Below, one piece after another: positions 17,205 to 42,028 of a DNA stretch of 64,000 bases (position 1 is its first letter; each line of letters begins with the position of its first letter). The position numbers were made by a program, and so were the translations under genes. The notes under the pieces were generated by a model. It was not told the DNA's origin. It was given only the letters and a program-made list of their open reading frames with translations, and did not search any database. The DNA comes from a bacterium (GTDB taxonomy: Bacteria; SZUA-182; DTGQ01): contig JBFLZW010000006.1 of the NCBI GenBank assembly GCA_040755755.1, forward strand, positions 1 to 64,000, read 5' to 3'.

Positions 17205-17321
17205 TTCAGAAGTCAGAAGCCAGGAGTCAGAAGTCAGGAGTCAGGAGCCAGAAGAAAAGAAAGCCTTTATTCTGATCACTGACCACTGATCACTGTCTTT
17301 ACTGACCACCGACCACTGACC
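17205..17321. repeat. Composite GGAGTCA and CTGACCA repeat array
   Basis: 17205-17253 holds about six AAGTCAG/GGAGTCA heptamers and 17271-17321 holds CACTGACCACTGATCA-type units, i.e. both repeat families side by side. It separates the ATPase/PIN pair from the dehydrogenase gene; the rest of 17082-17389 holds nothing I recognise. Confidence 0.8.
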
Positions 17322-40071: not shown

Positions 40072-40899
40072 GTGAAGGATCATACAACCGTTGAAGTTAC
40101 CAAAATCAGGAAATCCGGGGTCTTTTCAATCCAGGATGAAGTCATTCGGGAAATCCCCCTGACGATCCGGATTAACGGCACCCCGTGCGCGACCCTGATG
40201 CGCACTCCGGGGCGGGAAAGAGAATTAGCCCTTGGTTTTTGCTTTACTGAAGGCATCTTGCCTGATTCATGGCGGGAAGGCGGTCTTCAATGGGAAGATT
40301 GCAATCCGCAGGGCAATACCATCGGCCTGCAGATCGAACATTCCCCCGCGTTCCAGCCTGCCAGGCCCCTGTCTTCTCCTTCCTCCTTGACTGATTCTGC
40401 AGAGATCAGATTCATGGAACCGGAACCTTCTGGGGATGAGACTGAAATAGCCAACCGGATCTCTCCCTCCGTGGGCACAATCGACTGTCAACTGCGAATC
40501 CCGCTGCCGGTTCTGCACAGCATCGAGGGCCAGGCCCGGCAAAAGCAGGCCCTTTTCACCCTTACCGGAGCGACGCATGCAGCCTGTATCTTTGATCATC
40601 AGGGAAATTACCTTTTCTGTTTCGAGGATATGGCCCGGCATAACGCTTTGGATAAAGCCATCGGGCACGCTTTACTTGCCGGGGTGGAGCTTGGCGATAA
40701 AATTTTATTCCTGAGTGGCCGGACTAATTACACCCTGATTTGCAAGGCGGCCCGCTGCCGCATTCCCCTGGTTGCTTCCGTCTCCGCTCCCACCTCACTG
40801 GCAGTGAGTTTAAGCAGAAGGGTCGGGATAACGTTGATCGGATTTTTGCGCTCCGGAGAAATGAATATTTACGCAGGAGCGGAGCGGATCGTTATGTAA
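40072..40899 (+). CDS. fdhD: Formate dehydrogenase accessory sulfurtransferase FdhD
   Basis: 275 residues from a GTG at 40072, 18 nt after the HEPN gene. Family motifs: RTPGRERELALGFCFTEGIL (50-62), TGATHAACIFD (165-175), EDMARHNALDKAIG (185-198), SGRTNYTL and CRIPLVASVSAPTSLAVSL. FdhD carries sulfur from IscS to the molybdopterin cofactor of formate dehydrogenase. The usual flexible CxxC/CGxCG loop is missing; at that position the sequence is SPSVGTIDCQ with a single Cys139. The next gene is a selenoprotein SelD, consistent with a selenocysteine-containing formate dehydrogenase elsewhere in the genome. Confidence 0.9.
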   Translation: MKDHTTVEVTKIRKSGVFSIQDEVIREIPLTIRINGTPCATLMRTPGRERELALGFCFTEGILPDSWREGGLQWEDCNPQGNTIGLQIEHSPAFQPARPLSSPSSLTDSAEIRFMEPEPSGDETEIANRISPSVGTIDCQLRIPLPVLHSIEGQARQKQALFTLTGATHAACIFDHQGNYLFCFEDMARHNALDKAIGHALLAGVELGDKILFLSGRTNYTLICKAARCRIPLVASVSAPTSLAVSLSRRVGITLIGFLRSGEMNIYAGAERIVM

Positions 40900-40905
40900 A
40901 GAAGA

Positions 40906-40932
40906 CAGGAGTCAGGAGTCAGGAGTCAGAAG
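40906..40932. repeat. GGAGTCA heptamer array (3-4 copies)
   Basis: Tandem GGAGTCA units filling most of the 70-bp gap between fdhD and selD. Confidence 0.85.
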
Positions 40933-40969
40933 AGAGACAACCGATAAACCACTGCTGGAGTTAACGGAC

Positions 40970-42028
40970 ATGAGCAGAAAAGACAAAATAAAATTGACCC
41001 ACGGGGTCAAATCCGCTGGCTGAGCTTCCAAACTGGGTCCGGGTGACCTGCAGGCTCTGCTGGCCCGCCTGCCGCAGCAGGCGGAGCATCCGAAGGTGCT
41101 GGCCGGGTTTGGCCATGCGGAGGATGCTGGTGTGTATCAACTCTCCGAGGATCTGGCTTTGATTCAGACTGTTGATTTTTTTACTCCTATTGTGGACGAC
41201 CCGTTCGATTTCGGCCAAATTGCCGCAGCCAATTCTCTGAGCGATGTTTACGCCATGGGCGGCACGCCGATTTCCGCCCTGAATATCGTCGCTTTTCCCA
41301 TTCGCTGTCTGGGAATCGAGGTTCTTGAGCAAATCCTGCAAGGAGGAGCGACGGCTCTGGCCGAAGCCGGAATTCCCTTGATCGGGGGGCACAGTATCGA
41401 GGATGAGGAGGTCAAATACGGCCTGTCCGTGGCCGGGCTTATTCATCCCCAAAAAATCATCCGGAATAATACCCTGAAACCAGGCGACAAACTGGTGCTG
41501 ACCAAGCCCATCGGCACGGGAGTCATAGCCACTGCCCTGAAAGCGGAAATGGCCAATTCCGAGCATGTCCAGGCTATGATCCGGTCCATGAAAAGCCTGA
41601 ACGAACTTCCCGCCCGGATAATGCAGGATTATGAAGTTCATGCCTGTACGGACATTACCGGCTTTGGCCTTCTGGGACACATCCGGGAGATGGTCGATGG
41701 TTCCGGCTGCACCATCCGGATATACAGCCAAAGCATACCCTTTATCGAGGGGGCCCCTGATTATGCCCGGCTGGGCCTCGTTCCTGGCGGGGCATATCGC
41801 AACAGGGAGTTTGTTCAAAATTACCTCACCGGCTACGAATCAATTGCTCAGGAGATTCAGGATCTGCTTGTTGATCCGCAAACCTCCGGCGGCCTTTTGA
41901 TTTCCCTCCCGGCTGCCTCGAGCGGACAATTTCTGGAAGCTCTTCTCAACACTTATCCTCTGCCGTCGGCCATTATCGGTGAGGTCATCGCAGGATCGGA
42001 GCAAATTCAGATCGCCCGGCATCCGTGA
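40970..42028 (+). CDS. selD: Selenide, water dikinase containing selenocysteine (UGA at codon 18)
   Basis: ATG 40970 begins MSRKDKIKLTHGVKSAG, then TGA (41021-41023), then ASKLGPGDL in the same frame, to the stop at 42028, giving 352 residues. This is the SelD active-site loop (GCxxK in E. coli), so the TGA is read as selenocysteine 18 with Lys21 as the catalytic lysine. Without readthrough the gene would start only at 41096 and lose its catalytic end. DVYAMGGTPISALNIVAFP, GGHSIEDEE and ITGFGLLGH are conserved. SelD makes selenophosphate from selenide and ATP, the Se donor for tRNA-Sec. It follows fdhD. selA, selB and tRNA-Sec are not in the window. Confidence 0.93.
41034..41050 (+). promoter_or_regulatory. 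Candidate bacterial SECIS hairpin in selD
   Basis: TGGGTC (41034-41039) and GACCTG (41045-41050) can pair around a CGGGT loop. The loop starts 17 nt after the UGA and has G at its second position, both in the range expected for bacterial SECIS elements bound by SelB. A second, stronger hairpin at 41065-41084 is farther away. Confidence 0.55.

Follow-up and report, generated by a model that had tools for sequence, protein, structure and literature searches.

A UGA-containing selD gene with a comparatively supported SECIS hairpin, and a second UCA tRNA and SelB in the same genome

Introduction

Selenophosphate synthetases (SelD) that carry a UGA-encoded selenocysteine (Sec) are common, and the arrangement is well known. 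The window studied here, that is, the whole stretch of 64,000 nucleotides that was analyzed, contains a selD gene crossed by a UGA codon near its start, and the original prediction held that this SelD is itself a selenoprotein. The question raised by the locus is how this UGA is read, in a genome that encodes not only a tRNA-Sec and a SelB but also a second UCA tRNA lying beside a second, divergent SelB.

The selD Frame Contains a Single, Conserved UGA

The following features, all on the forward strand of the window, are needed to describe the gene.

40072..40899, + strand: fdhD, formate dehydrogenase accessory sulfurtransferase (TIGR00129, 172.8 bits, cut-off 140.9)
40957..40960, + strand: GGAG, a likely ribosome-binding site judging from the sequence, 9 nt before the ATG at 40970
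40970..42028, + strand: selD, selenide, water dikinase (selenophosphate synthetase), 352 aa with a predicted Sec at position 18, assigned by its TIGR00476 score
41021..41023, + strand: in-frame UGA, codon 18, very probably read as Sec, with Cys aligned in 3u0o and 2yye
41096..42028, + strand: selD as an ordinary ORF caller would give it (truncated, GTG start, 310 aa)

Between the ATG at 40970 and a TGA stop whose last base is 42028, the selD frame is open except for a single internal TGA at 41021-41023, which bears out the predicted in-frame UGA at codon 18; the predicted context, KSAG-U-ASKLGPGD, is exact as well. In a family profile search, the product scores 390.8 bits against TIGR00476, for which the cut-off is 125. 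When it is aligned with two SelDs of solved structure, 3u0o (which we take to be SelD from E. coli) and 2yye, a Cys lies opposite the UGA in both, with the caveat that a crystal structure may carry a Cys replacing a natural Sec. Cys-containing homologues aligning at the UGA, proposed as a check in the original prediction, include these two proteins and also 11 Cys-type SelDs from other loci. A Cys-type SelD such as 3u0o belongs to the same family and shares the aligned site, the difference being a Cys codon instead of UGA. As was also foreseen, standard gene calling starts selD at the GTG at 41096 and loses the active-site loop. Since ordinary ORF calling truncates the gene and removes its catalytic loop in this way, this example is of use for correcting how selenoproteins are called in draft genomes.

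The UGA is widely conserved. Among 54 SelD places over the cut-off in 97 genomes searched, 49 contain exactly one TGA and five contain none, one of these five (in G091) being a match without the N terminus. The loci of relatives yielded 57 distinct UGA-type SelD sequences with the UGA in the same motif, and the SelD of a genome from the same genus (G001), 84.6% identical to ours, keeps both the UGA and the hairpin that follows it. This bears directly on the possibility that the UGA either ends translation or reflects an error of assembly, in which case translation would start at the GTG at 41096 and give a SelD without its N terminus, or the gene would be dead. The 310-aa ORF is indeed open, and the hairpin is weak when taken alone (see below), but recurrence of the UGA in one motif across independent genomes strongly contradicts such a reading. 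Moreover, similarity to 3u0o and 2yye begins at residue 5 or 7, hence also upstream of the UGA; the Met at 40970 is conserved in G001, G002, and G003; the Sec machinery is present; and a whole-genome search finds only one SelD over the cut-off, namely this gene with one TGA inside. We therefore regard a stop or an error as extremely improbable.

As predicted, fdhD lies immediately upstream of selD. It scores 185.3 against a second model, NF001943, which is under the cut-off of 269. The adjacency of the two genes is kept in G001, G002, and G003, while no fdhD was found in the selD locus of G004, which spans about 1.5 kb upstream. The gap between fdhD and selD contains a short CAGGAGTCAGGAGTCA-like run (40906-40928); similar runs occur in the window at 17221, 32252, and 38752 and also on contig C2, making this a dispersed low-complexity repeat of the genome.

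The Genome Encodes SelA, SelB, tRNA-Sec, and UGA-Containing Formate Dehydrogenases

The genome (G000) comprises 5.26 Mb in 88 contigs and is 97.6% complete and 3.0% contaminated. Both tRNA-Sec and SelB, without which the original prediction would be untenable, were found, together with SelA. Profile searches locate one SelA (563.5 bits) adjoining a SelB (383 bits) on contig C31, and contig C7 encodes a tRNA-Sec with a UCA anticodon, G73, and an encoded CCA. The neighboring fdhD had been noted as consistent with a Sec-containing formate dehydrogenase, and candidates of this type are present: two full-length FdhA genes over the cut-off, whose TGA falls within the motif HCARxUH, and a further two partial, FdhA-like matches under the cut-off, whose TGA falls within HQARxUH. 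In two FdhA-like genes (L111 and L112, on contigs C60 and C18), the sequence after the UGA, (GGCUCUGG(C/G)AGAGUC), is unlike the hairpins with a GGUCU loop in the full-length FdhA pair.

The Hairpin after the UGA Is Weak Alone and Supported by Comparison

41034..41050, + strand: putative bacterial SECIS hairpin, 6 bp (two G-U) with the 5-nt loop CGGGU at 41040-41044, proposed from register pairing across UGA-type SelDs

A figure legend in PMC13188914 gives constraints for bacterial SECIS elements, namely, a loop of 3-9 nt, an upper stem of 4-16 bp, a G within the first two loop positions, 16-37 nt from UGA to loop, and a minimum free energy of -7.5 kcal/mol or lower. The selD hairpin (UGGGUC-CGGGU-GACCUG) has a 5-nt loop and 6 bp including two G-U pairs, and its CGGGU loop offers the early G. 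Sixteen nt separate the UGA from the loop, at the lower edge of the range, so that loop base 41040 is the 17th after the UGA, in agreement with the predicted position. On its own, the hairpin misses the energy cut, with -4.3 kcal/mol when folded with 6 bp or -5.4 kcal/mol with 5 bp, and -8.8 kcal/mol is reached only when 36 nt, including a second hairpin, are folded together. Randomization gave the same picture. The 50 nt from the UGA show no stability signal when compared with shuffles (z +1.14; 178 of 200 shuffles were at least as good). Against synonymous resampling, the hairpin is not significant alone (z -0.60 for nt +7 to +33), and longer stretches dilute it (z -0.05 for nt +7 to +51). 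An Rfam scan of the window returned nothing over gathering scores.

Comparison across relatives proved more informative. A motif search located the UGA/Cys site in all 80 SelD loci assembled, and after 12 duplicates were dropped, 57 UGA-type and 11 Cys-type sequences remained. Several loci (L060, L063, L067, L240-L243, L245, and L249), some of which are one gene fetched twice, hold Cys-type SelDs within open frames of 740-765 codons, perhaps domain fusions. Under synonymous resampling, the mean z for nt +7 to +33 was -2.18 in the UGA-type set versus -0.46 in the Cys-type set, with 84% and 18% of sequences, respectively, below -1; for nt +7 to +51, the means were -1.15 and -0.28. The register of the window's hairpin is paired in 82% of cells across the 57 UGA-type SelDs, a value that falls to 27-50% if one arm is displaced by 1-3 positions; at every one of the six stem pairs, at least two standard pair types occur. 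In the 11 Cys-type SelDs, by contrast, 50% of cells are paired in register and 30-62% when slid, which is not specific.

Folding energies tell the two sets apart in the same manner. A hairpin of the published geometry at -7.5 kcal/mol or lower was found in 29 of 57 UGA-type SelDs and in none of the 11 Cys-type ones; with -5 kcal/mol as the limit, the counts are 51 of 57 and 1 of 11. The Mann-Whitney p for the energies, 1.5e-6, is indicative only, given that the sequences compared are relatives of one another and that the Cys-type set has just 11 members. This selD is thus not alone in missing the published cut, since 28 of 57 UGA-type SelDs do so under the same scoring. Many UGA-type SelDs, this one included, have the loop of their best early-G hairpin beginning at nt 17-18 after the UGA; in the remainder, it begins mostly at nt 21-30 and in a few at nt 14. 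Hairpins therefore separate UGA-type from Cys-type SelDs, and a weak SECIS can be recognized by comparison even when it misses the published energy cut. The interpretation of the selD hairpin as a probable bacterial SECIS is supported by this comparison and not by the stability of the hairpin itself.

SelD Is Very Probably an Ordinary Selenoprotein

The UGA, its conservation, the presence of SelA, SelB, and tRNA-Sec, and the comparative support for the hairpin all favor the view that SelD is itself a selenoprotein. The gene resembles known Sec-type SelDs in its family score, in having UGA at the position of the aligned Cys, in the hairpin right after the UGA, and in the SelA, SelB, and tRNA-Sec alongside. 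No difference of substance was apparent, the hairpin here being weaker than the published energy cut. We consider it very probable that selD is an ordinary Sec-type selenoprotein gene and that Sec is inserted at the UGA at 41021-41023.

From the known biology of Sec, the tRNA-Sec encoded on C7 would be charged with serine, which SelA (C31) would then convert, and the SelB encoded beside selA would deliver this tRNA while bound to the hairpin at 41034-41050. The resulting selenophosphate synthetase would be full-length, would carry Sec in the N-terminal loop that binds selenium, and would supply selenium both for its own synthesis and for the UGA-containing formate dehydrogenases of the genome.

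A Second UCA tRNA and a Divergent SelB Resemble selC*/selB* Systems

The second pair lies on contig C2 (locus L050), and G001 has a counterpart.

L050 11260-11350, - strand: second UCA tRNA, selC*-type, with U73, 8/4 stems, and a bulged A; the pair spans 79295-81350 of G000 contig C2
L050 9238-11202, - strand: second, divergent SelB (SelB*), on G000 contig C2
L054 7180-9523, contig C90 of G001: selC*/selB*-type pair

The tRNA has U73 and lacks an encoded CCA. Its acceptor stem of 8 bp and its T stem of 4 bp with a bulged A follow a pairing set by hand; left free, the minimum-energy fold gives 7 bp in the acceptor stem and lengthens the T stem, the bulge being retained. The SelB* ORF starts 57 nt past the tRNA on C2 and 330 nt past it on C90 of G001. 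Between these two genomes, the tRNA is identical at 89 of 91 positions while the SelB* proteins are only 74% identical, which indicates that the tRNA is under strong constraint.

The SelB* of C2 shares 38-39% identity with the canonical SelBs of G000, G001, and G002, and a tree of 43 SelBs places the two SelB* proteins together on a long, fully supported branch of their own. The 38% identity and this separate long branch lead us to reject a recent duplication of the resident SelB as the origin of SelB*. Contamination is an unlikely source of the second SelB and tRNA, because the pair recurs, amid similar genes, in G001, which is an independent genome from this genus.

The pair is rare. Among 88 SelB-bearing genomes (193 searched), only G000 and G001 have two SelBs over the cut-off, and in G095, a second SelB match is partial and just under it. 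Under strict filters, a search of 386 genomes with a model of the C2 tRNA gave 121.3 bits in G000 and G001 and 55.9 bits for the next match. Contigs were also scanned for SelB* with two peptide patterns, and among the best 80 of the 420 loci obtained, identity to SelB* is 35-41%. U73 is absent from all UCA tRNAs that ARAGORN reported in these 80 loci, most of which have no UCA tRNA within the stretch examined. Among the loci of the SelB tree, one further U discriminator (L298) and three loci with C before the CCA were seen, the automatic letter being unreliable where the ARAGORN end misses the CCA; the U of L298 is probably an end-shift, because the Rfam match is one base shorter.

Systems with a selC*/selB* tRNA-Cys were reportedly described in Syntrophobacterales and Desulfobacterales by Mukai et al. 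in 2017. Passages of PMC7609411 list as features of selC* tRNA-Cys the U73, the 8/4 stems with a bulged A, a UCA or GCA anticodon, and a second selB downstream, and according to part of a review (PMC9437257), selC*-type tRNAs insert Cys at Sec UGA codons, a role posited for selenium scarcity. So far as these passages describe the published systems (PMC7609411 and PMC9437257), the C2 pair is like them in U73, 8/4 stems with a bulged A, and UCA anticodon, as well as in the placement of selB* after selC* and the coexistence of an ordinary selB. In the same passages, a second CysRS without an anticodon domain is confined to a subgroup of the Desulfobacterales, and none was found in G000: each of five genomes searched has a single CysRS over the cut-off. 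The pair differs from the published systems in its neighbors, which are genes for DUF1573, an Se/S carrier, a double-cubane protein, and YedF. The comparison with published SelB* is one of features. By these features, the C2 tRNA and SelB* fit the published Cys-inserting systems, and the bacterium may thus possess a second, rarer machinery that reads UGA as cysteine.

Cys Insertion by the Second Pair Is a Less Probable Reading of the SelD UGA

The observations that argue against a reading of the UGA as Sec are the hairpin's own energy, which is above the -7.5 kcal/mol cut, the lack of an ordinary tRNA-Sec among the UCA tRNAs found in G001 (see below), and the second UCA tRNA and SelB, whose presence means that residue 18 of SelD could be Cys in part. 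In such a scheme, the UGA would be read partly, or under selenium shortage, as Cys by the selC*-type tRNA and SelB* of C2. SelB* might act in this way since some SelDs, those of the Cys type, naturally have Cys at this site, and a Cys-type SelD from the C2 system would still work and could restart Sec synthesis. The C2 tRNA bears the selC* features described in the passages of PMC7609411, with a selB* downstream, and its near identity in two genomes reflects strong constraint; the placement of Cys at Sec UGA codons, posited for selenium scarcity in the excerpted review (PMC9437257), would suit the scheme.

The evidence from relatives weighs the other way. The SelD hairpin is nearly identical in G002 and G003, each of which has one SelB over the cut-off, so the ordinary SelB accounts for it; binding of the hairpin by SelB* is putative. 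There is also no cysS*, given the single CysRS per genome noted above, and the C2 tRNA might, alternatively, be an additional tRNA-Sec, since the Rfam tRNA-Sec model accepts it with 58.9 bits (gathering score 47); its charging with Cys is likewise putative. G001 is more ambiguous. This genome has a UGA-type SelD, a UGA-type FdhA, and an ordinary SelB beside a SelA-like frame (judged by eye from its likeness to the SelA of G000), and the search for UCA tRNAs found the U73 one alone, no ordinary tRNA-Sec having been detected in this draft (loci L090 and L275). This would favor Cys insertion, but an assembly gap is the simplest reason for the missing tRNA-Sec, because the draft is only 96% complete. 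On balance, partial or shortage-dependent reading of the UGA as Cys seems rather unlikely to us.

Insertion of Sec at codon 18 remains our preferred reading. A broader proposal, which we put forward as speculative and likewise doubtful, is that the genus reads this codon both as Sec, by SelB and tRNA-Sec, and as Cys, by SelB* and selC*, with the C2 locus acting as a selenium-status switch; the idea of a switch comes from the setting of selC*-selB* among genes for YedF, an Se/S carrier, and a Cys-form DUF1573. Among the papers listed in a literature search that covered few subscription papers, titles and abstract openings showed no study of a SelD read by both systems. If dual reading were true, the Cys form would solve a circularity, since a Sec-type SelD is needed to make Sec, and cells could restart selenium use after starvation. 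The more interesting point is that one genus combines a SelD of the UGA type with a selC*/selB*-type pair, since this makes replacement of Sec by Cys under selenium shortage testable on the protein where it would be most consequential.

Gene Neighborhood of selB*

No SelB*-specific target was found on L050 or L054: a list of TGA-interrupted frames at these C2 and C90 loci, judged by eye, contains none that is convincing, and the neighboring DUF1573 gene has Cys codons at its CGC motif. The latter gene is over the cut-off for PF07610 and scores 98.3 bits against the OS_HP2 seleno-family (NF041425), for which the cut-off is 100. DUF1573 carries a UGC selenoprotein motif according to a passage of PMC9312934, and the C2 gene has CGC there. 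After selB* on the - strand (L050 5216-9251) come the genes for DUF1573 with its CGC motif, an Se/S carrier, a double-cubane reductase and activase, and YedF. The order after selB* in G001 is DUF1573 and yedF, followed by a gene of the cysteine-desulfurase family. On the other strand, some 600 bases from the selC* tRNA, lies a fluoride riboswitch (RF01734, 47.6 bits, L050 11958-12029, + strand).
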